A stretch of DNA of 51,639 nt from Candidatus Omnitrophota bacterium (GTDB lineage Bacteria; Omnitrophota; Gorgyraeia; Zapsychrales; JAHFFX01). Position numbers and translations under genes: made by a program. Positions within the stretch are counted from its first letter, which is position 1; the number at the start of each line of letters is the position of its first letter. Of this stretch, positions 6,337 through 34,030 are shown piece by piece. Under the pieces are notes generated by a model, which made no database searches, had not been told where the DNA came from, and saw only the letters and a program-made list of their open reading frames with translations. The stretch covers positions 1 to 51,639 of the forward strand of contig JAHFFW010000017.1 of assembly GCA_023247725.1 (NCBI GenBank), in the 5' to 3' direction.

Positions 6337-6488
6337 TGGTTCATTAAGTCAGCGGATCAATCCGAGGTTAGTGTCAGTAGCCCGCTCGACAAAGAAGACA
6401 AAAATGATGTGGCCGCTCGGATGCAGGATCATTGGAACCGCGCGAAGAGTTTTTGAAACTTGTCATTATAATTTTAGGGAAGAGGACG

Positions 6489-6881
6489 ATGTTTTTTCGT
6501 ATTGGCCTGGTAGGCTGTGTTCTTACTTGTCTGATGTTATCCCGTTCAGGAGTGCTGTGTGCACAGCCTTCGATTCCCAGGGGAAATCTGGAACAAACCC
6601 TCCAGGACTTCCATCAAATGGGAGATCAAGAAAAAAAACAGCTATTGAATTCCGTCGGCATTGACGTCGGCCAGGGTTTCCCCTGGGCCAAGGTTGTCGC
6701 GTGGTTTTTGTTTGGCAGCGTTGGTTTTGTTGTTTTTATGTATGGAAAAAATATCAAGAGTTTTAAGCCTTTGCTTCTTGGATTAGCCCTCATGGCATAT
6801 CCTTATTTTTTCAATGATACGGTTTGGCTCTATGGAATTGGCATTGCTCTGTGTTTGGGATTATTTTTATGGCGAGATTGA
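6489..6881 (+). CDS. Small secreted/membrane protein, function unknown
   Basis: From the ATG at 6489 the product has 130 residues: a signal peptide (about 1-25, ending near LCAQP), a short helical stretch with DFHQMGDQEKKQLL, and three hydrophobic helices (about 60-76, 86-102, 108-126). This start was chosen over an upstream in-frame ATG (6432) because AGGGAAGAGG lies directly before it and it gives a clean signal sequence. No family is recognised. Confidence 0.6.
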   Translation: MFFRIGLVGCVLTCLMLSRSGVLCAQPSIPRGNLEQTLQDFHQMGDQEKKQLLNSVGIDVGQGFPWAKVVAWFLFGSVGFVVFMYGKNIKSFKPLLLGLALMAYPYFFNDTVWLYGIGIALCLGLFLWRD

Positions 6882-6935: not shown

Positions 6936-7043
6936 AAGGCTGCCCCAATGGGGGGGGTGGATAAAGACTTAGTCCAAAGGCTGCCATCAATTTGGCTGAC
7001 CTCGTTAACCTACAATAAGGGACGAAAAAGACGGGAGGCTCAT

Positions 7044-7439
7044 ATGCAAGGCAGAGCAATGGTACTTTCTCTCACGGTGTTGACATGCATTTTGATCGCG
7101 GGCAGACCCGCTTTGGCCGCTACACCGGTCAAGAAGACCACCACGACCACAGAGGCCGCAACCTATCCCTGGCACGACAAAATGGCCCGGGGTGTTGTCA
7201 ATGCCGTGACCAGCCCCGTGGAGATTGTTCGGGGCATTGACCTGACGTCGAAGAGCGATGGTGTCCTAAAAGGCTGGACGATTGGTTTTGTGAAAGGTTT
7301 GGCCGGCGGACTGATCCGGCTTGGAGCAGGAGTTGTTGATTTTGTAACCTGCCCTTTTAATTTTCCTGATAAGAATAAGGCTCCTATTGTGCATCCGACT
7401 TACGTCTGGCAGGATTGGAGCGGGGAGTATATGAAGTAA
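7044..7439 (+). CDS. Exosortase-system-associated protein, TIGR04073-like
   Basis: From the ATG at 7044 the product has 131 residues. It has a signal peptide (about 1-24, ALAA-T), a Thr-rich linker, then KMARGVVNAVTSPVEIVRG, GWTIGFVKGLAGGLIRLGAGVVDFVTCPF and a C-terminal HPTYVWQDW. This layout matches TIGR04073, a short secreted protein often found in genomes with an exosortase system. Its molecular role is unknown. GGGAGG at 7033-7038 supports the start over an upstream in-frame codon at 6927. No exosortase or PEP-CTERM substrate lies in this window. Confidence 0.65.
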   Translation: MQGRAMVLSLTVLTCILIAGRPALAATPVKKTTTTTEAATYPWHDKMARGVVNAVTSPVEIVRGIDLTSKSDGVLKGWTIGFVKGLAGGLIRLGAGVVDFVTCPFNFPDKNKAPIVHPTYVWQDWSGEYMK

Positions 7440-13021: not shown

Positions 13022-14862
13022 ACGTCGCCCATCTCATTCCGTTATTTCCATTTCTTGCCTTCTGGGTGAATATCCTGTTGGGAAAAACCCTTCACCGGGC
13101 CAGCGCCTGGATTTCCATCATTGCTTCCCTGATATCGATGGTTTTGTCCATCTCCACAGCCCAAGGGTTTTTGGCGGGAGCCGGATCTTATCCTTTAGGA
13201 ACCTGGTTAACATTCTTTGGTCAACCCATTGCTTTTGGCGTCATCGTTGATCCTTTAACCGTCATGATGCTGCTTGTTGTGACCGTGGTCGCGACCCTCA
13301 TCATGATTTACTCCGTCGGATATATGGGAGGGGATCCCCATTTTAGCCGCTATTTCGCCTACATGTCTTTATTCACCGCCTCGATGCTGGGACTGGTCCT
13401 CGCCGATAATTTGCTCATGCTTTATATCTTTTGGGAAGGGGTAGGATTGTGTTCATATTTATTAATCGCCTTCTGGTTTGAACGGCCCGCGGCGGCCCGC
13501 GCCGGGCTAAAGGCATTCCTCACGACTCGGATCGGAGATACGGGATTACTTTTAGGAATTTTTCTTTTATTTGCCGCAACGGGTTCTTTGTCTTTTACGG
13601 ATTTGAGTAAGGCGAATGGGCCTGAATGGATGCTCATGGCTGCGGCCTTGTTGATATTCTCGGGAGCCGTCGGTAAATCAGCCCAATTTCCTCTGCACGT
13701 TTGGCTACCCGATGCCATGGAAGGCCCCACCGCGGTTTCTGCCTTGATCCATGCCGCGACCATGGTCGCGGCGGGAGTGTATCTGGTCGCGCGTTGCTTT
13801 GTGCTGTTTGCCGCCCATCCGGTTTGCCTTGAGGTCGTCGCCGTAATGGGAGGTATCTCGGCGCTCATGGCCGCTTCGATTGCGAGCGTCAATAATGATA
13901 TCAAAAAGGTCTTGGCCTACTCCACGATCAGTCAATTGGGTTTGATGATGCTGGGTTTGGGGGTGGGAGGCTATAGCGCCGGAACCTTTCATCTGATGAC
14001 GCATGCGTTTTTTAAAGCGCTCCTCTTTTTGTGTGCCGGAAGCATTATCCACGGCGTGCATACTCAAGATATTCGTCTCATGGGCGGACTTTTTTACCGG
14101 ATGAAAACAACGGGGATCACATTTGTGATTGGAACGCTCGCGATCGCCGGGGTTCCGCCTCTGTCGGGATTTTGGTCCAAAGATGAAATCCTTGCGCAGG
14201 CCTTTGGGCCCCACCCCGTTTTATTCATCACAGCTTTACTCACGAGCTTTCTGACTGCATTTTACATGGCCCGGCTCATGCTTTTGGTTTTATTCGGCAA
14301 GTCTCGTTCAGAATTGCAAACCCACGAATCGCCCGTGACCATGAGGTTTCCTTTGGTGGTACTGTCCTTTTTTGCGCTTTTTGCCGGTCTTTTGGGCTCT
14401 CCCTGGATGCACCATGCCTTTCAAAAATTTCTTGCCTTCCAAGTCCCATATCCGTCGGAAGAAGCCCCTTCCAAGTTCGTTATGGGGCTTTCTATCGGCG
14501 TGAGTTTGTTGGGGATCGGTTTAGCTTATTCCATTTATATTCTTCATCGAAGGTTTCTCCCGGAAGGCATTCGTGCCCAATTCGGTTGGCTTTACCGGCT
14601 GTTAATGAATAAATATTACATCGATGAAATCTATGAAGCAGTTTTCGTCCAGCCGTTTTTAAGGCTTTGCCGCCTTTCGTTCCGTTTTGATATGGCGGCC
14701 ATTGACGGGGTGGTCAACGGTATTGCCAATCTCGTCCGTCGTGCCGGAGGAATCCTTCGCCGGCTTCAATCTGGATTCGTGCAGAATTATTTGTTGATTC
14801 AAACGATCGGCGTCTTGATTGTCATCATGACGCTCTTAGGAAAACTATGTTTCCAATTTTGA
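13015..14862 (+). CDS. nuoL: NADH-quinone oxidoreductase subunit L (antiporter-like)
   Basis: From the ATG at 13015 the product has 615 residues. It is the distal proton-pumping subunit, with the Glu of FWEGVGLCSYLL, the HVWLPDAMEGPTAVSALIHAATMV helix pair and a C-terminal lateral helix region. The reading frame is open far upstream (12868) but that overlaps nuoK, so the ATG or the GTG at 13018 next to the nuoK stop is the likely start. Length and motifs are those of a normal NuoL. Confidence 0.95.
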   Translation: MVNVAHLIPLFPFLAFWVNILLGKTLHRASAWISIIASLISMVLSISTAQGFLAGAGSYPLGTWLTFFGQPIAFGVIVDPLTVMMLLVVTVVATLIMIYSVGYMGGDPHFSRYFAYMSLFTASMLGLVLADNLLMLYIFWEGVGLCSYLLIAFWFERPAAARAGLKAFLTTRIGDTGLLLGIFLLFAATGSLSFTDLSKANGPEWMLMAAALLIFSGAVGKSAQFPLHVWLPDAMEGPTAVSALIHAATMVAAGVYLVARCFVLFAAHPVCLEVVAVMGGISALMAASIASVNNDIKKVLAYSTISQLGLMMLGLGVGGYSAGTFHLMTHAFFKALLFLCAGSIIHGVHTQDIRLMGGLFYRMKTTGITFVIGTLAIAGVPPLSGFWSKDEILAQAFGPHPVLFITALLTSFLTAFYMARLMLLVLFGKSRSELQTHESPVTMRFPLVVLSFFALFAGLLGSPWMHHAFQKFLAFQVPYPSEEAPSKFVMGLSIGVSLLGIGLAYSIYILHRRFLPEGIRAQFGWLYRLLMNKYYIDEIYEAVFVQPFLRLCRLSFRFDMAAIDGVVNGIANLVRRAGGILRRLQSGFVQNYLLIQTIGVLIVIMTLLGKLCFQF

Positions 14863-26905: not shown

Positions 26906-28948
26906 ATGAAGAAATCATATTTTATAACCGGCACCGACACCGACATTGGGAAAACCGTCGTGACGATGGTGCTCGCCATGCTTCTTCAAGAAAGAGGCAT
27001 CAAGGTCGGTGTTATGAAGCCAGTGCAGTGCGGTGGCACCGATGCTTTATTTTTGCAGAAATCTCTGCAGTTGCCTCAACCTCTTTCGGTCATCAACCCA
27101 TGTTTTGCGCCAGAGCCATTGAGTCCGCATCTGGCCTTTCGCCGGGCAGGAAAGAAAATCAACCTGAAAAAGATTCAGGCCGCACTTTGGTCCTTGCAAA
27201 AGTCTCACGATGTGATTTTGTTGGAAGGGGCTGGCGGGTTGCTCGTGCCTCTGCGGCAAGATTACCTCGTCGCGGATTTGGCCCGGGATTTGCAAAGCGA
27301 ATTAGTGATCGTATCGGCCTTGCGGCTGGGAACGATCAATCACACGCTTTTAACGATCAAGATGGCGCAGGCCTACGGCTTAAAAGTCAAGGGAGTCATC
27401 TTTAATACCATTTCTTCCGGGCCTGCCGGGATTCCAGAAAAGACCAACCCAGAAGTGATCCAGCGTCTGGGAAGAGTTCCAATTTTGGGGATCGTTCCTT
27501 TTTTAGAACAAAAAGGTCGAGTTTCTATCGTCAAAAAATGTCAAAAAAAGATTCAACTGGAAGAATTCCTTAAGCCCAAGAAACCGGATGAGCATTGGAT
27601 GACCTGGGACAAACAGTATCTTTGGCATCCTTTCACGCCGATGAAAGATTGGCTTTTAAGCGAACCTTTAGTGATCGAATCCGGTCAAGGGAATTTGCTT
27701 GAGGACACGGAGGGAAGGCGATACATCGATGGAGTTTCCAGTTTGTGGGCGAATCTCCACGGCCATCGGCATCCCCGAATTAATCAGGCGATTTCAACTC
27801 AGTTGAATCGCATCGCGCACTCGACGCTTTTGGGGCTGACTCATCCGCCGGCCGTAGAATTAGCCAAGCGGCTTTGTGAAATCGCGCCGAAAGGATTGAC
27901 GAAGGTTTTTTATTCGGACAATGGCTCAACGGCGGTCGAGGCCGCAATCAAGATGGCCTATCAATACTGGCAGAATACCGGCGGGCGCAAAAAGACAACG
28001 ATCGCGCATCTTTCCAATTCTTATCATGGCGACACGCTGGGCAGCGTTAGCGTCGGAGGAATCGATCTGTTCCATCGGGTTTACCGGAATCTCATGTTCA
28101 AAACGATTGCCGTGGAATTTCCCGATTTCTATCGTTGTCCGCTGGGGAAAAAATATCCCGACTACACTCATGAGTGCCTGGACAAACTCGAAAGCCTCTT
28201 CAAAAGACGGCATGACACGATGGCCGCGCTCGTCATCGAACCGCTGGTGCAAGGGGCTGCCGGCATGATTGTCTGGCCCGACGGGATTTTGAGACGGATA
28301 GTGGGGGGCTGTAAAAAATACGACATTCTTTTCATTGCGGATGAAGTGGCCACCGGTTTCGGCCGGACCGGCAAAATGTTTGCTTGCAACCATGAAGGGG
28401 TTGTTCCGGATTTTTTGTGTCTTGCGAAAGGTCTAACCGGCGGCTATCTTCCTCTGGCCGCAACACTGACAACTCAAAGAATTTTTGAAGGATTTCTGTT
28501 TGATTATGAGGACCAAAAGACTTTTTTTCATGGCCATACCTATACCGGAAACCCTTTAGCCTGCGCCGCCGCCTTGGCCAATCTGGAAATTTTTCAAAAA
28601 GAAAAAACGCTGAAAAAAATTCAGCCCAAAATAAAATATTTGGCGAAAAAATTGCGAACGTTTTATAATCTAGCCTCTGTCGGCGATATCCGGCAAAAGG
28701 GTTGGATGGTCGGCATTGAACTCGTCAAGGATCTGAAGACCAAAGAGCCATTTGCGTGGGAAGAAAGGATTGGAGTGAAAGTTTGCATGGAGGCCCGCAA
28801 GCACGGCGTTATCCTTCGGCCGTTGGGGAACGTGATCGTCCTGATGCCGCCGCTGGCGATCAACGAGGAAGGGATCGATAAACTTTTGGATGTGGCTTAC
28901 AAAGCTATTGAGAGAGTAACCAGTAATCAGGAGGGCAAAAATGATTAA
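26906..28948 (+). CDS. bioDA: Fused dethiobiotin synthetase - DAPA aminotransferase
   Basis: The 680 residues join two biotin enzymes. Residues 1 to about 225 are BioD: P-loop GTDTDIGKT, the KPVQCGG loop and LEGAGGLLVPL. Residues from about 230 are BioA: WHPFTPMKDW, SDNGSTAVEAAIKMAYQYW, FIADEVATGFGRTG and PLP Lys508 in LAKGLTGG. BioA makes diaminopelargonate and BioD closes its ureido ring, so the fusion links consecutive steps in BioD-BioA order, as in the plant BIO3-BIO1 protein. No frame break is present at the joint. The last eight bases overlap a tiny downstream ORF. Confidence 0.93.
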   Translation: MKKSYFITGTDTDIGKTVVTMVLAMLLQERGIKVGVMKPVQCGGTDALFLQKSLQLPQPLSVINPCFAPEPLSPHLAFRRAGKKINLKKIQAALWSLQKSHDVILLEGAGGLLVPLRQDYLVADLARDLQSELVIVSALRLGTINHTLLTIKMAQAYGLKVKGVIFNTISSGPAGIPEKTNPEVIQRLGRVPILGIVPFLEQKGRVSIVKKCQKKIQLEEFLKPKKPDEHWMTWDKQYLWHPFTPMKDWLLSEPLVIESGQGNLLEDTEGRRYIDGVSSLWANLHGHRHPRINQAISTQLNRIAHSTLLGLTHPPAVELAKRLCEIAPKGLTKVFYSDNGSTAVEAAIKMAYQYWQNTGGRKKTTIAHLSNSYHGDTLGSVSVGGIDLFHRVYRNLMFKTIAVEFPDFYRCPLGKKYPDYTHECLDKLESLFKRRHDTMAALVIEPLVQGAAGMIVWPDGILRRIVGGCKKYDILFIADEVATGFGRTGKMFACNHEGVVPDFLCLAKGLTGGYLPLAATLTTQRIFEGFLFDYEDQKTFFHGHTYTGNPLACAAALANLEIFQKEKTLKKIQPKIKYLAKKLRTFYNLASVGDIRQKGWMVGIELVKDLKTKEPFAWEERIGVKVCMEARKHGVILRPLGNVIVLMPPLAINEEGIDKLLDVAYKAIERVTSNQEGKND

Positions 28949-29018
28949 AATTAAGGAAAAATTCTTTCGGGACAAAAAGGGCAAACCGGTGAGCGTTGTA
29001 TTAGATATTATGAATTAG
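28941..29018 (+). pseudogene. Remnant of a small antitoxin-like gene
   Basis: A 25-codon ORF has a strong AGGAGGG site (28929-28935), translationally coupled to the bioDA stop. The peptide reads MIKIKEKFFRDKKGKPVSVV then LDIMN. It matches the start of small Phd/RelB-like antitoxins (K-E-K-F-x-x-D-x-x-G-K-x-x-x-V-V-L-D-I). Two bases out of frame, YYELDLLLK continues where intact members have a Tyr-Glu-Leu-Leu segment, suggesting a frameshift near 29010. Confidence 0.4.
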
Positions 29019-29083
29019 ATTTATTGCTCAAGACCACACTTATAGCGACATCGAGAAAATAATCCTCAATTTTGGGGAAACTT

Positions 29084-30040
29084 ATGAATAAAAAATTCTG
29101 GCTAGCATTATGCATGATTAGTGTCCTCCTTCCAGCAAACCATTTAGTTTTTGGTGAGGAGGATTTTATCAATCTGGGCCGTTTATCTATTGCGCGGGTT
29201 TCGGCGAGCAGCGTGAACGGCCATCGCAGTCTTTCGGATGAATTTTATGGCGTCAGAAATCTATTTGATTTAGGAGAGCATGTGATCTCTAATCCGACAC
29301 CGATCAATTATGATTATTGGATGAGTGACGTAGGATCAAGCCCTTGGGTAAAAGTCCGATTCCTAAAACCAGTGGAAGTGGAGAAAATTATTCTGGAAAT
29401 TCCGGGTATTTGGGAAACACAGTCCACGACGAAGGATAACCCACCTCTTGAAGAGGGTAAACCAGTTCATATTGCGTCGACAAAGATAACAGTGTATGAA
29501 ACCGTGCGCAGTTCATCTGTCCCCGCAGAGTTTGCGGTGGAAATAGGATATGAAAAAAACGGCACCATGCATGATGAAACGCTTGATTCAATACCCATTA
29601 AGGGCAGCATCACAACGTATCCGTTGCCCAAGCCGATTTCGGATGTGAATTTTGTCAAGATTGTTTTCCCGACGAACAGCAGCATTTTGGTGAATGAACT
29701 CAAGATTATGGGGCGGGCTCCCCAAGGGACGGATTTGACCGCGGGCGTCCCCAGCGTTGATATGAATCAAGAAGAAGCAGTTCGCTTTGGACGGGAGATT
29801 GCCGATGAGTACATCAAGCTCAAGTACAGTGAAGGAAAGGTAATCGAGGAAAAGGGTGGCTGGGATTATGAGGTTGTTCAGCATGGAAATACCATTCTAA
29901 GGATTAATTTCAATAATGAAGGAGAGCCGCAATCGTTGTATGATGGGGATTTAGAAAAAATAATCGATTTAACCGGCCCTGATTTAGATAAAGCTTTGCA
30001 GGAAGGGTGGAAAAAAGAAGAGACGATTCCTGTCAAATAA
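29084..30040 (+). CDS. Secreted protein with galactose-binding-like (F5/8 type C-like) domain
   Basis: From the ATG at 29084 (GGGGA upstream) the product has 318 residues with a signal peptide (about 1-24). Residues about 30-215 form a beta-rich region with YDYWMSDVGSSPWVKVRFLKPVEVEKIILEIPG and FVKIVFPTNSSILVNELKIMG. This is the strand pattern of F5/8 type C/discoidin domains, which bind carbohydrate or other surfaces. The C-terminal 90 residues are acidic and carry DLTGPDLDKALQEGWKK. The gene is AT-rich relative to bioDA and opens the accessory island. Confidence 0.55.
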   Translation: MNKKFWLALCMISVLLPANHLVFGEEDFINLGRLSIARVSASSVNGHRSLSDEFYGVRNLFDLGEHVISNPTPINYDYWMSDVGSSPWVKVRFLKPVEVEKIILEIPGIWETQSTTKDNPPLEEGKPVHIASTKITVYETVRSSSVPAEFAVEIGYEKNGTMHDETLDSIPIKGSITTYPLPKPISDVNFVKIVFPTNSSILVNELKIMGRAPQGTDLTAGVPSVDMNQEEAVRFGREIADEYIKLKYSEGKVIEEKGGWDYEVVQHGNTILRINFNNEGEPQSLYDGDLEKIIDLTGPDLDKALQEGWKKEETIPVK

Positions 30041-30079
30041 GATTTCCGTCATTGCATATTCAAGGGAAGATTTTTAGAA

Positions 30080-30169
30080 ATGAGAGTACAGAATAACAAC
30101 AAAAGAATCTTCGTCTCCATGTCGGGCGAAGTGGATTCATCGAAGGCTATCGCAGAGATCACATTTTAG
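30080..30169 (+). pseudogene. Decayed copy of the mnmA 5' end (copy 1)
   Basis: A 29-codon ORF contains KRIFVSMSGEVDSSKA, aligning with KKTVFVAMSGGVDSSVV of the intact MnmA at 32111. The PP-loop SGGVDSS is altered to SGEVDSS and similarity fades afterwards. It lies 39 bases after the secreted protein gene and just before the YcxB-like gene. Confidence 0.65.
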
Positions 30170-30178
30170 GTCTGAATC

Positions 30179-30664
30179 ATGACAACAATTTCTTTAACGT
30201 TTCAGGTTCGGTTCAAAGAATATTTAGAAGCCTGTTTTTTTCATTTCGTGCTACGATTTAGAAAATTTTTTGAAGTTTTAAAATATGTTCTCATTGTTAT
30301 CATTGGAATCATAGGATGGGTTTTCTTTGGGTATCGTCCTTTCTGGTTGGTCATGATCACATTTCCTCTATGGATTATGATCTTGCTCCTGTACGCCTCC
30401 GCGCTCGCGTTTAAACGGGAGCCCAAATATAAGGAAACACTCCGTTGGATATTTACTGATGAAGGCATTTTATTGAAAACCAAAAGCATCGATTCAAAAT
30501 TGGAATGGTCCGTTTATAACACTTTTCTTGAAACAAAAAATATTTTCATGCTTTACTACGGCAGAGAACTCTTTAGTTTGATTCCAAAGAGATCTTTTCT
30601 TAATGCGAATGAAATCGAGGAATTTAAAAAATTAGCGCGGAGTAAAATTCCAGCTGGGAGCTAG
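30179..30664 (+). CDS. YcxB-like membrane protein
   Basis: This 161-residue protein has two adjacent transmembrane helices (about residues 35-52 and 55-75) and a cytoplasmic C-terminal domain. That domain has FTDEGILLKTKSIDSKLEWSVY ... FSLIPKRSFLNANEIEEFKKL, the layout of the YcxB-like family (D-G-I, W at the strand end, IPKR-x-F). The biochemical role is unknown. It is AT-rich and part of the accessory island. The start ATG at 30179 lies ten bases after mnmA copy 1. Confidence 0.65.
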   Translation: MTTISLTFQVRFKEYLEACFFHFVLRFRKFFEVLKYVLIVIIGIIGWVFFGYRPFWLVMITFPLWIMILLLYASALAFKREPKYKETLRWIFTDEGILLKTKSIDSKLEWSVYNTFLETKNIFMLYYGRELFSLIPKRSFLNANEIEEFKKLARSKIPAGS

Positions 30665-30745
30665 ACGCTCAGGGTTGAGGGCCAGCGCATATAAATTTAA
30701 ACGATGAACATAATCCGAAAGCAAGCCTTCGTTGCTTATAACACC

Positions 30746-30774
30746 TTGACGTTTAATGCTGACTATGCTATTGT
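30746..30774 (+). promoter_or_regulatory. Candidate promoter of the Phd/VapC module
   Basis: TTGACG (30746-30751), 17 bases, TATTGT (30769-30774). Direct repeats of ATGGTCA at 30779-30785 and 30793-30799 lie between promoter and start codon and could be an autoregulatory operator. Confidence 0.45.
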
Positions 30775-30819
30775 TACTATGGTCACATTAGAATGGTCAT
30801 TTCAGGAAGAGGTGCGACG

Positions 30820-31050
30820 ATGAATATTCCCGCCGGCGAATTCAAGGCCAAATGTTTAAAGCTGATGGATGATGTCCAAAAATCTCAGCGGGAGATTGTA
30901 ATTACCAAATACGGAAAACCGGTGGCGAAGCTTGTGCCGGTGAAAGATAGAAAGAGATCCTCGTCCATCATCGGGATGCTGAAAGGGACAAGCAGAATTC
31001 ATGGAGATTTAATTGAACCAACCGGAGAGCGCTGGGAGGCCGATGATTAA
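30820..31050 (+). CDS. Phd/YefM-family antitoxin
   Basis: From the ATG at 30820 (AGGAAGAGGT upstream) the product has 76 residues. MNIPAGEFKAKCLKLMDDV and IVITKYGKPVAKLVPV form the Phd DNA-binding fold. The tail GDLIEPTGERWEADD is the disordered toxin-neutralising segment seen with PIN toxins. It overlaps the toxin start by eight bases, the usual antitoxin-first order. The complex normally represses its own promoter. Confidence 0.9.
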   Translation: MNIPAGEFKAKCLKLMDDVQKSQREIVITKYGKPVAKLVPVKDRKRSSSIIGMLKGTSRIHGDLIEPTGERWEADD

Positions 31051-31480
31051 GGAATCCGCCCACCGGTTAGCTTTGCTCGATACGCATATCTGGATTTGGC
31101 TGGTCACTGATAATCCCCGCGTTCAATCTTCCCCATTTATCAAAAAGATTAAAGAATTTGAGGCCCAGCATGGCTTAAGGGTTTCGGTTATTTCCATCTG
31201 GGAAATTGGGATGCTTCATGCCAAGGGCCGATTAGAACTTCCTTTTAGTCCTCATGAGTGGATTCAGAAAGCTTTGGCTGCTCCTGGAATCCGGATTGCG
31301 GAACTGACACCCGAAATTGCCTTGGACAGTGCGCATTTTTTAAAGGGATACCCCGGCGGCGACCCCGCCGATCGGATGATTTTGACAACGGCGAAAAGCC
31401 TTGGAGCAACCCTCGTGACCGCTGACCAGAAAATGCTGAAATGTGCCAAGGAACATCATTGGGAAAGCTTGTCTCCCTAA
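31043..31480 (+). CDS. vapC: VapC-type PIN-domain toxin (ribonuclease)
   Basis: From the ATG at 31043 (GGGAGG at 31034-31039) the product has 145 residues. The PIN acidic residues are present: Asp13 (LLDTHIW), Glu54 (SIWEIGM), Asp110 (DPADRMI) and Asp128 (VTADQKML). Such toxins cleave tRNA or rRNA in a Mg-dependent way and are held by the Phd-like partner. The module appears intact. Confidence 0.9.
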   Translation: MIKESAHRLALLDTHIWIWLVTDNPRVQSSPFIKKIKEFEAQHGLRVSVISIWEIGMLHAKGRLELPFSPHEWIQKALAAPGIRIAELTPEIALDSAHFLKGYPGGDPADRMILTTAKSLGATLVTADQKMLKCAKEHHWESLSP

Positions 31481-31498
31481 AAACATGGTTGTCGAAAT

Positions 31499-31580
31499 AT
31501 GTTGAATCGTAAAAAAGTCTTCGTCGCCATGAGCGGCGGTGTGGACTCCTCCGTCGTGGCCTGACTTATCAGGGATGAAA
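31499..31580 (+). pseudogene. Truncated copy of the mnmA 5' end (copy 2)
   Basis: ATG at 31499 opens a 21-residue reading frame, MLNRKKVFVAMSGGVDSSVV then A and TGA. Bases 31517-31561 are identical to 32138-32182 in intact mnmA. After the stop the protein similarity continues weakly (LIRDE versus LMKDQ) before ending. It starts 18 bases after vapC. The stop replaces the Gly codon GGC of the intact gene. Confidence 0.9.
31517..31561 (+). repeat. 45-bp exact direct repeat, copy A (mnmA PP-loop region)
   Basis: Identical over 45 bases to 32138-32182. It encodes VFVAMSGGVDSSVVA in the same frame as MnmA. Confidence 0.97.
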
Positions 31581-31690
31581 ACGCGTTCCGAGCCGATCGG
31601 ATTATTTATCAACGGCCGATGACGGCAACGTTATTCTCATCACTGCGATTTAATCGAGCCGGTGGAAGGATCTGCAAAGTAATAAGTTAA
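31580..31690 (+). pseudogene. Possible decayed toxin/antitoxin fragments
   Basis: One frame reads FRADRIIYQRP and, one base shifted, another reads DDGNVILITAI and stops at 31651-31653. Joined, these resemble the C-terminus of a RelE-type toxin. A third stretch, CDLIEPVEGSAK (about 31645-31680), resembles the GDLIEPTGE tail of the intact antitoxin at 30820. The pieces are short and out of frame with one another, so this is a tentative reading of degraded DNA. Confidence 0.25.
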
Positions 31691-31705
31691 GGAGGAGGTG
31701 TTAAT

Positions 31706-31918
31706 ATGGCTAATACTTTTACGGCCGTCGTCAAGCACGAAGGTGATTGGTGGATTGGATGGATTGAAGAAGTCTCGGGAGTGAATGCTCAGGAAAAGAC
31801 GCATACAGAATTAGTAAAGAGTCTTAAGATCGCGCTTAAAGAAGCGTTAGAATTTAACCGAGAAGAGGCCATACGGGCGGCTGAGTCTAATTATTCGGAA
31901 GAAATCTTGAACGTATGA
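31706..31918 (+). CDS. hicB: HicB-family antitoxin
   Basis: The product has 70 residues. It has the HicB beta fold start (FTAVVKHEGDWWIGWIEEVSGVNAQEKTHTEL) and an amphipathic helix VKSLKIALKEALEF. It is the short, DNA-binding-domain-less form common in HicBA pairs. AAGGAGGAGG at 31689-31698 is a very strong ribosome binding site. It overlaps the next ORF by ATGA. Confidence 0.85.
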   Translation: MANTFTAVVKHEGDWWIGWIEEVSGVNAQEKTHTELVKSLKIALKEALEFNREEAIRAAESNYSEEILNV

Positions 31919-32104
31919 AACGCAGAGAATTATTGCGTTACCTTCAGCAACATGGTTGTATTCTGCTTCGGGAAGGGGCCAGGCATTCCTGGTGGTCTAA
32001 TCCTACCTTAAATAAGCGCTCAGCTATTCCACGGCATAATGAAATTTCATGATTTGTTGGCAAAAAAGATCTGTAAAGATCTAGGTGTTTCTCCAATAAA
32101 ATAA
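31915..32104 (+). pseudogene. hicA: HicA toxin gene with a one-base frameshift
   Basis: The frame from ATG 31915 encodes MKRRELLRYLQQHGCILLRE, the HicA active-site region GARHSWWSNP and KRSAIPRHNEIS, then TGA. Dropping one T from ATTTCATG near 32045 restores HDLLAKKICKDLGVSPIK up to the TAA at 32102-32104, the normal HicA end. The double-stranded-RNA-binding-like fold would lose its last helix. It may be a real inactivation or an indel error. The catalytic His is still present. Confidence 0.8.
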
Positions 32105-32110
32105 TTTGAA

Positions 32111-33208
32111 ATGATTCATCAAACTAATAAGAAGACTGTCTTCGTCGCCATGAGCGGCGGTGTGGACTCCTCCGTCGTGGCCGGCCTCATGAAGGACCAG
32201 GGTCATGAGGTGGTGGGGGTCACGATGTGTTTTAACATCTCCCACCCGAATTCCAGCCGTCCGTCGTGTTGCGGAGTGGAGGGGATCCAGGATGCACAAA
32301 GGGCGGCGCAGATCCTCGGCATCCCGCATTATGTCTTTAACTTTGCCAAGGAGATTAATGAAAAGATCATCGATAACTTTACCAGCGAATATCTGAACGG
32401 CCGAACGCCGAACCCGTGCGTTCAGTGCAATCAGCATTTGAAGTTTGGTTCACTCTATCGGAAGGTAATGGCCTTGGGGGCAGACGTGATCGCGACCGGC
32501 CATTACGCCAGGGCTGAACAAAATCCCCAGACGCAGAGATTTGAACTAAAGAAAGGAAAGGACCAGCATAAGGATCAGTCCTATTTCCTCTACAGTATGA
32601 GCCAGGAGACCTTGCCCCGGGTTTGGATGCCGTTGGGCGGTTTAACGAAATTGGAGGTGCGGCAATTGGCGCGCCGCTATCAGCTCAATACCGCCGAAAA
32701 GCCGGAGAGTCAAGACATCTGTTTTGTTCCATCGACGGGATATAAGAAGTTTATCGAAGAGCGCGTGGGTGAGGAGGCCGTGCAGCCTGGGGCATTTTTA
32801 GATGAATCCGGCCAAGTGATCGGCCAGCATAAGGGCATCATCCATTACACGATCGGCCAGCGCGATGGACTGGGATTGGCTTTAGGATATCCGGCTTATG
32901 TTTATCGAATTGATCGCGACACTCAGACCGTCCATGTGGGTCGGATGGAGAAATTGTATTCGCGCGGGCTTATAGCCGCTCAAATGAATTATCTGAGCAT
33001 TGATTCGCCCGTCAACAATCTTAAAGTCAAGGCTCGCATTCGATACAATAGTCAGGAAGTGGACGCTGTATTGACTTCGCTCTCGGAGGGCATGGCTCGG
33101 ATTGATTTTGGCGAGCCGATGAAATCAGTGACGCCCGGTCAATCCGTTGTTCTTTATCGCGATGATGTGGTATTAGCCGGTGGAATTATTGAGCAGAAGA
33201 TCGGTTAA
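32111..33208 (+). CDS. mnmA: tRNA-specific 2-thiouridylase
   Basis: This 365-residue enzyme inserts sulfur at U34 (s2U) of tRNA-Lys, -Glu and -Gln. The PP-loop is AMSGGVDSS (residues 13-21), the catalytic Cys pair is Cys103 (NPCVQCN) and Cys204 (SQDICFVP), and GHYAR and IGQRDGLGLALG are family motifs. Sulfur normally comes from a cysteine desulfurase, and one lies 9 kb upstream. The start has almost no ribosome binding site and begins six bases after the hicA remnant. Its first 70 bases are duplicated upstream twice, so its native leader appears to have been replaced. Confidence 0.95.
   Translation: MIHQTNKKTVFVAMSGGVDSSVVAGLMKDQGHEVVGVTMCFNISHPNSSRPSCCGVEGIQDAQRAAQILGIPHYVFNFAKEINEKIIDNFTSEYLNGRTPNPCVQCNQHLKFGSLYRKVMALGADVIATGHYARAEQNPQTQRFELKKGKDQHKDQSYFLYSMSQETLPRVWMPLGGLTKLEVRQLARRYQLNTAEKPESQDICFVPSTGYKKFIEERVGEEAVQPGAFLDESGQVIGQHKGIIHYTIGQRDGLGLALGYPAYVYRIDRDTQTVHVGRMEKLYSRGLIAAQMNYLSIDSPVNNLKVKARIRYNSQEVDAVLTSLSEGMARIDFGEPMKSVTPGQSVVLYRDDVVLAGGIIEQKIG
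32138..32182 (+). repeat. 45-bp exact direct repeat, copy B (inside mnmA)
   Basis: Identical to 31517-31561. This copy lies at codons 10-24 of intact mnmA. Confidence 0.97.
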
Positions 33209-33373
33209 AACAATTTTTAATCCAGCCGCTGTTTGCATAACTTCCCCGAAATCGTTCACTGCAAATTTTCTGCGGTAAGTCGGAGCAATTTTTTTCCATC
33301 GTTTATTTACACGCCTTCGGCGAAATGTTATTGTGATAGGGATTCCCCTCTTCTTTCAATAAAGGATGACACG

Positions 33374-34030
33374 ATGGTGCGAAGAATTTCTTGGGTCTTG
33401 TTAATTTTTTGGATCATGGTTTTATCTTCGATTCCCAGCGCCGAGGCAGCCAGACGAAAACCTATCGAAGAAATCCCGACGGCTTCCCAGAATCAAGAAT
33501 TTAATGGCGAAGATTTATTTCTGGTTGTCAAAGAAGGCCGCTATGGTTTTATGGATCGCACCGGTCGAGTCGTGATTCCCTGTCAGTATGAACTGGCCAA
33601 TCCATTCGTCGAGGGAATGGCCGCGGTCATGGCCGTCAGTCATTGGGGCTTTATCGATCCCAAAGGTAAAATGGTGATCCGCCCGCTCTATTTCCAGGTG
33701 GGCGATTTCTCCGATGGTTATGCGTCCGTCGAGGTCAATGGGAAATACGGTTATGTCAACAAAAAGGGATTTATGGTGATCAAGCCGCAATTTGACAAGG
33801 CGGAAAAATTCTCCGAAGGTTTGGCCGCGGTCATGGTGGGGGACAAGTGGGGCTACATTGACAAACTGGGTCATCTTGCCATCAAGCCGCAATTTTTCCG
33901 GGCATCGGATTTTTCCAATGGCCTGGCGGTGGTCATGGTTTTCGATGAAGGCGAACTCCCCAATCCCAGCCAGGCTTCCCTGGGATACATTGACAAAAAA
34001 GGCAATTATGTCTGGAAGCCGTCGAAGTGA
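33374..34030 (+). CDS. Secreted WG-repeat protein
   Basis: From the ATG at 33374 (AAAGGA upstream) the product has 218 residues with a signal peptide (about 1-25). At least five WG-type repeats follow, each of the form G-x-(W/Y)-G-(F/Y)-(M/I/V)-(D/N)-x-x-G-x-x-V-I-x-P-x-(Y/F). Examples are GRYGFMDRTGRVVIPCQY, HWGFIDPKGKMVIRPLYF and KWGYIDKLGHLAIKPQFF. The repeats probably form a small beta-propeller or solenoid. A binding role is likely but the ligand is unknown. An upstream in-frame start (33233) lacks support. The end overlaps the next gene. Confidence 0.85.
   Translation: MVRRISWVLLIFWIMVLSSIPSAEAARRKPIEEIPTASQNQEFNGEDLFLVVKEGRYGFMDRTGRVVIPCQYELANPFVEGMAAVMAVSHWGFIDPKGKMVIRPLYFQVGDFSDGYASVEVNGKYGYVNKKGFMVIKPQFDKAEKFSEGLAAVMVGDKWGYIDKLGHLAIKPQFFRASDFSNGLAVVMVFDEGELPNPSQASLGYIDKKGNYVWKPSK

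Follow-up and report, generated by a model that had tools for sequence, protein, structure and literature searches.

What does it mean when a housekeeping gene carries its own beginning three times over? The question is raised by mnmA, the gene for tRNA 2-thiouridine(34) synthase, in a stretch of DNA from a Candidatus Omnitrophota bacterium (GenBank assembly GCA_023247725.1, contig JAHFFW010000017.1, positions 1 to 51,639 of the forward strand; the whole 51,639-nucleotide stretch is hereafter called the window). The nearest named matches of this genome are 'Candidatus Omnitrophota bacterium nzgw302' and Ca. Zapsychrus exili. The gene order at the locus is bioC-bioDA-accessory genes-mnmA, with three mnmA 5' ends on the same strand within its final 3.2 kb. 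On balance, we think it likely that the junction between bioA and mnmA is a gene-acquisition hotspot in this Omnitrophota order, and that foreign DNA enters there by homology-driven recombination at the mnmA 5' end.

Displaced mnmA 5' ends in the window and in related genomes

The three mnmA starts, placed by the original prediction at 30080, 31499 and 32111, were confirmed by alignment and by both protein and DNA profiles. All of them lie on the + strand, in the orientation of the bioDA-mnmA operon. The intact gene (32111..33208) matches NF001138 with 418 bits and TIGR00420 with 352 bits, and forms the right flank of the accessory genes. Copy 2 (31499..31575) aligns with it over 59 bp at 92% identity, the first 45 bp being identical (31517-31561 and 32138-32182); the sequences differ on both sides of this core, after which copy 2 runs into an in-frame TGA. 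Copy 1 (30067..30141, within an open reading frame (ORF) at 30080-30169) is degraded and aligns over 75 bp at about 67% identity. With a profile of the MnmA N-terminus, copy 1, copy 2 and the intact gene scored 17.5, 36.8 and 91.8 bits, against 7.5 bits for the best unrelated match in the loci of the order. A DNA profile of mnmA 5' ends returned E = 1e-6 for copy 1 and 1e-16 for copy 2, with a best E of 0.72 on reversed sequence. The N-terminal codons of stub and gene are unlike. No second copy of the 45-bp core was found in the genome outside the window, and no exact pattern match to it in viral contigs.

Searching the mnmA loci of the order with the same two kinds of profile, we detected displaced mnmA 5' ends in three further genomes, one of them borderline, so that with the window three families are represented. 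Every stub lies upstream of mnmA on the same strand and is anchored at the gene start, and the cassettes that close with an mnmA 5' copy differ from genome to genome. In genome G077 (locus L031), a 172-bp stub at 6986-7192 is followed by an SNF2 helicase gene, a gene for a secreted protein and mnmA. In G004 (L040), a stub at 13622-13669 precedes a 101-aa membrane protein and mnmA, giving a unit of only about 360 bp. The borderline case, G079 (L036), has a 24-nt stub directly upstream of mnmA with a marginal DNA-profile E of 0.007, set apart from the other stubs (1e-6 to 1e-43). It reads as 13 codons (684-722, MPSFKVFVAMSGR) whose TGA overlaps the mnmA ATG as ATGA, and the two frames are possibly translationally coupled. 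Three stubs run into TGA almost immediately. Overall, units measure 0.4-3.6 kb, are stacked up to three deep and leave stubs up to 3.6 kb from mnmA. A possible decayed stub right after bioA in G002, seen by eye, was unsupported by the profile and was set aside.

The unoccupied state is common. In most relatives mnmA follows bioA directly, the bioA stop codon overlapping or nearly touching the mnmA start. Gaps above 500 bp separate bioDA and mnmA in 9 of 49 cases, compared with 2 of 44 for bioC and bioDA and none of 42 for bioH and bioC. These empty sites, together with the stubs and their recurrence, support the serial insertion originally proposed, in which an mnmA 5' end closes each unit and the old one stays upstream. 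Specificity was assessed by a control scan of 920 ORFs in 1.09 Mb, comprising these mnmA loci and a sample of about 340 kb from the window's own genome. Clear upstream partial copies of an N-terminus were found for mnmA only; we attributed the few other matches to repeats or to a shared pilin-type signal. Similarly, no displaced mnmA copies were found in 40 sister-order genomes, where three second matches that were read proved to be LarE. Genomes outside the order with at least two profile matches mostly held long PP-loop ORFs or truncations at contig edges, such as G208.

Where did the displaced ends come from? Between stub and gene in G077 there are 2, 1 and 24 differences at first, second and third codon positions, respectively. 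Because the differences fall almost entirely at third positions (24 of 27), both must formerly have been functional mnmA genes; they are alleles that evolved separately before they met, and the stub is xenologous. Up to about nt 70, congeners of G077 are closer to the stub, and beyond that point to the intact gene. The breakpoint, at nt 64-77 (p 0.002-0.027 in permutation tests, varying with the reference set), suggests a reciprocal exchange, or crossover, between the two mnmA 5' segments, although the signal is modest. For mnmA in the window itself, a comparable mosaic analysis found no sufficiently close relative. G009 and G004, which belong to one family but to different genera, form an approximate pair of empty and occupied sites. 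The promoter-like region of G009 mnmA aligns to the sequence before the G004 stub with a score of 53 (99th percentile of random alignments, 24) and to that before the intact G004 gene with a score of only 15. The G004 stub retains the promoter that mnmA still uses in G009, where this cassette is absent. Decay with distance from the live gene, as first suggested, holds in that copy 1 is degraded and copy 2 keeps 45 of 45 bases, but it explains only part of the divergence of stubs, which also stem from other mnmA alleles, as is clear in G077.

Contents of the bioA-mnmA interval

In the window, the left flank of the hotspot is a bioDA fusion (26906..28948, +; NCBIfam TIGR00508 bioA, 565 bits). 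Its stop codon is overlapped by a 25-codon ORF (28941..29018, +; MIKIKEKFFRDKKGKPVSVVLDIMN), read from the sequence, which we take to resemble the N-terminus of an antitoxin and which is probably the remnant of an earlier toxin-antitoxin (TA) unit. The first unit continues with an ORF for a probable secreted protein of 322 aa (29072..30040, +) that matched no family in Pfam, NCBIfam or PADLOC and occurs in the window genome only among the 81 genomes of the order. Behind copy 1, the second unit carries a YcxB-like membrane protein (30179..30664, +; PF14317, E 1.3e-14), a Phd/YefM antitoxin (30793..31050, +; PF02604, E 5.8e-9; TIGR01552) and a VapC-like PIN toxin (31046..31480, +; PF01850, E 4.2e-13). 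The third, behind copy 2, consists of a HicB/UPF0150-like antitoxin (31706..31918, +), with a weak match to PF21748 (E 0.009) next to HicA, and a hicA toxin gene (31915..32104, +) of which the N-terminal part matches PF07927 (E 5.7e-6). This hicA is indeed broken, as had been noted: a frameshift near 32047 leaves the C-terminal part readable in a different frame. Pfam thus upheld the initial naming of YcxB, Phd/YefM, PIN (VapC) and HicA, while HicB remains a weak call and the 322-aa protein is without a family. The third unit would have supplied the first bases of the intact mnmA. Directly 3' of mnmA lies a gene for a WG-repeat protein (33233-34030; PF14903, four stretches), the tandem DNA repeats of which could confuse repeat searches.

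Across the order, the contents of the interval are mixed and rich in TA pairs, among them HicBA, RelB-YafQ, HigBA-like and BrnT-like. The early description as TA cassettes is therefore apt only in part, since the cargo also includes UDG, a GIY-YIG-like protein, a DUF4143 ATPase, a methyltransferase, the SNF2 helicase and secreted and membrane proteins (the names HigBA, BrnT, GIY-YIG, methyltransferase and carbonic anhydrase are our own readings of the sequences rather than database calls). The DUF4143/AAA_14 ATPase lies between bioA and mnmA in G020 (L058 6814-8013) and is a strong match to the PADLOC candidate PDC-S01. The secreted-protein gene directly before mnmA in G077 occurs in 2 of the 81 genomes, the other being G001 of a different family; the two versions share 48% identity. 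As it overlaps the mnmA start both times, it evidently travelled with that start or repeatedly settled there. Contigs of G078, G079, G011, G024, G023, G071, G070 and G074 often end in or near the interval, as would be expected if it varies within populations. In the G011 assembly (93% complete), mnmA was not seen.

Mode of entry

We propose recombination at the conserved mnmA 5' stretch encoding VAMSGGVDSS as the way in for foreign DNA. The incoming segment would bring accessory genes with an mnmA 5' end of its own behind them; the gene would then start from this new end, while the former start stays upstream as a stub. A rare illegitimate join may first create an occupied site; thereafter the two mnmA 5' repeats could act as homology arms, and RecA-type exchange would move the cassette to other genomes or stack it on a resident one. 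No dedicated recombinase would be needed, and DNA uptake is a possible route. Under this scheme, the window would record at least two events and probably three: the antitoxin remnant with the secreted gene, YcxB with Phd/VapC, and HicB/HicA.

Several observations lead us to prefer homology over a fixed site. Measured from a common anchor, the stubs end at five positions (about 24, 27, 39, 45-59 and 172 nt), with no flanking motif in common and unrelated sequence adjoining them. The opposite flank is displaceable as well. In G078, a 94-aa bioA 3' end lies inside the accessory array (L191, G078:C7:6000-13983, at 6476-6766), with GGTACGTGTCCCCGG directly before it and a HigBA-like pair after it; it shares 81% DNA identity with the bioA of the same genome and 84% with that of G079, its closest match. 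This is a mirror image of the mnmA stubs, and it qualifies the idea of mnmA as the target, which stands insofar as the control scan singled out mnmA. The SNF2 and RelB-YafQ modules occupy differing positions within one genus, and 5 of 6 genomes have ComEC. Finally, no recombinase was found among the ORFs of the occupied intervals that were read, and, across 15 genomes whose intervals are filled or enlarged, no tyrosine recombinase (PF00589) near mnmA, the matches lying elsewhere.

An alternative, which we regard as possible but unlikely, is integration at a specific site. The mnmA 5' end would serve as attB for a trans-acting tyrosine or serine recombinase, each unit being an integrase-less cassette flanked by attL (the stub) and attR (the gene), much as at dusA, where a conserved coding stretch is likewise the target and the gene is restored (PMC4482086). 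Its main support is the 45-bp core in the window, with its sharp boundaries; the specificity for mnmA in the control scan and the reciprocal exchange pattern of G077 would fit this scenario as well. Against it stand the variable stub ends with their unrelated neighbours, the displaced bioA 3' end and the lack of tyrosine recombinases near mnmA in the 15 genomes. Nor is there an identical core in G077, where wobble differences run throughout the block shared by stub and gene, or in G079 and G004, where the same is seen. The original suggestion of mnmA as a regenerated attachment site, in the sense of a target for an integrase, was accordingly not supported.

Some points nevertheless weigh against entry by homology. 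The perfect 45-bp identity with differing flanks also suits an att core. Homology-driven exchange predicts that other conserved genes should be hit too, and the control scan showed none, in a sample that covered only about 340 kb of the window genome and the mnmA neighbourhoods. The case for a breakpoint in G077 depends on 15-26 informative sites and several sets of references. No pair of genomes is related closely enough to capture a single insertion before and after, G004 and G009 being of different genera, and by sequence the G079 stub is of marginal significance.

More doubtful still is a dedicated cassette system without an integrase, whose cassettes would form circles and go back in at the repeated mnmA 5' end, with a palindromic element behind cargo genes assisting in some lineages. 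Such an element, around CACTCCGGGAGTGTCCGGCGGCACGTAC, is found in genus g12 behind several cargo ORFs and directly behind the G077 stub (L031 6407 and 7197; L191 2859 and 5460; L192 4117). Its stricter form has only four matches in nine whole genomes, all in the bioA-mnmA interval (G077, G078 and G011) and always on the bioA/mnmA strand. The plain reading is that of a repetitive extragenic palindromic (REP)-like element, because the second of its hairpins (GGTACGYGTCCCCGG) is scattered through those genomes. The element is absent from the window and was not matched to attC.

It is improbable that the resident mnmA 5' end was merely copied upstream, by slippage or tandem duplication, and then decayed while accessory genes arrived independently. 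The copies do lie nearby in the same orientation, and the core of copy 2 is nearly identical to the gene. However, duplication is already contradicted by G077, where both segments evolved as functional genes, and by G004, where the promoter region of G009 mnmA has its counterpart before the stub and not before the gene; the differing N-terminal codons of stub and gene also speak against it. We find it harder again to credit that the stubs are short leader ORFs under selection, coupling translation to mnmA or to the cassette genes. The ATGA overlap in G079 and the early TGA of three stubs would suit such a role, but stubs lie up to 3.6 kb away and are missing in most relatives, and copy 1 is degraded. 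Least credible of all is chance similarity of PP-loop motifs or an assembly artefact: the paralogues GuaA, LarE and NadE do match weakly at the protein level and the genomes are metagenome-assembled genomes (MAGs), yet the DNA-level matches are far beyond the reversed null, start-anchored, on one strand and upstream only, and the recurrence of this arrangement in independent MAGs of other families makes an artefact unlikely.

Relation to known systems and significance

The type of phenomenon is already known. dusA-associated genomic islands and prophages (Farrugia et al. 2015, PMC4482086) bring a new dusA 5' end with them and displace the old one. As here, insertion occurs at the 5' end of a tRNA-modification gene, and the new end that comes with a promoter and the imperfect direct repeats flanking the island are further likenesses. 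Regeneration of the 5' end with displacement of the old one was found in all four genomes; an element-encoded integrase and a fixed att core were not. The dusA islands come with an integrase, recombine at a fixed position through a semi-conserved 21-bp att pair and can reach tens of kb. The units described here, in contrast, are small (0.4-3.6 kb), integrase-less and stacked, have variable stub ends and concern a different gene and phylum.

Similarly, islands in tRNA and tmRNA genes (Islander, PMC4383910) split and regenerate their target, and a displaced fragment marks the far endpoint; the units at mnmA differ in using a protein-coding 5' end, in lacking an integrase and in the variable length of the fragment. 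Homology-facilitated illegitimate recombination (PMC3240628) anchors one end by homology and joins the other illegitimately, and can leave partial copies of the anchor gene, but it is normally rare and tied to no single gene; crossovers in both mnmA repeats fit the G077 pattern better. Integron cassette arrays also stack small, TA-rich accessory genes beside a fixed gene. Unlike them, the units at this locus all close with an mnmA 5' end, and neither an integron integrase in the bioA-mnmA interval nor any recognised attC was seen. Our literature search found precedents at dusA and trmE and no report of mnmA as such an insertion site. We therefore regard mnmA as a new variant of a known theme, and one that is not specific to TA genes.

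In this poorly known phylum, the start of a housekeeping gene has been replaced repeatedly by foreign DNA without loss of the gene. The stubs left behind record the order of acquisition, so that gene gain can be read like strata. The locus also bears on the spread of small TA and defence genes that carry no integrase, and on whether homology to a conserved coding stretch may suffice.

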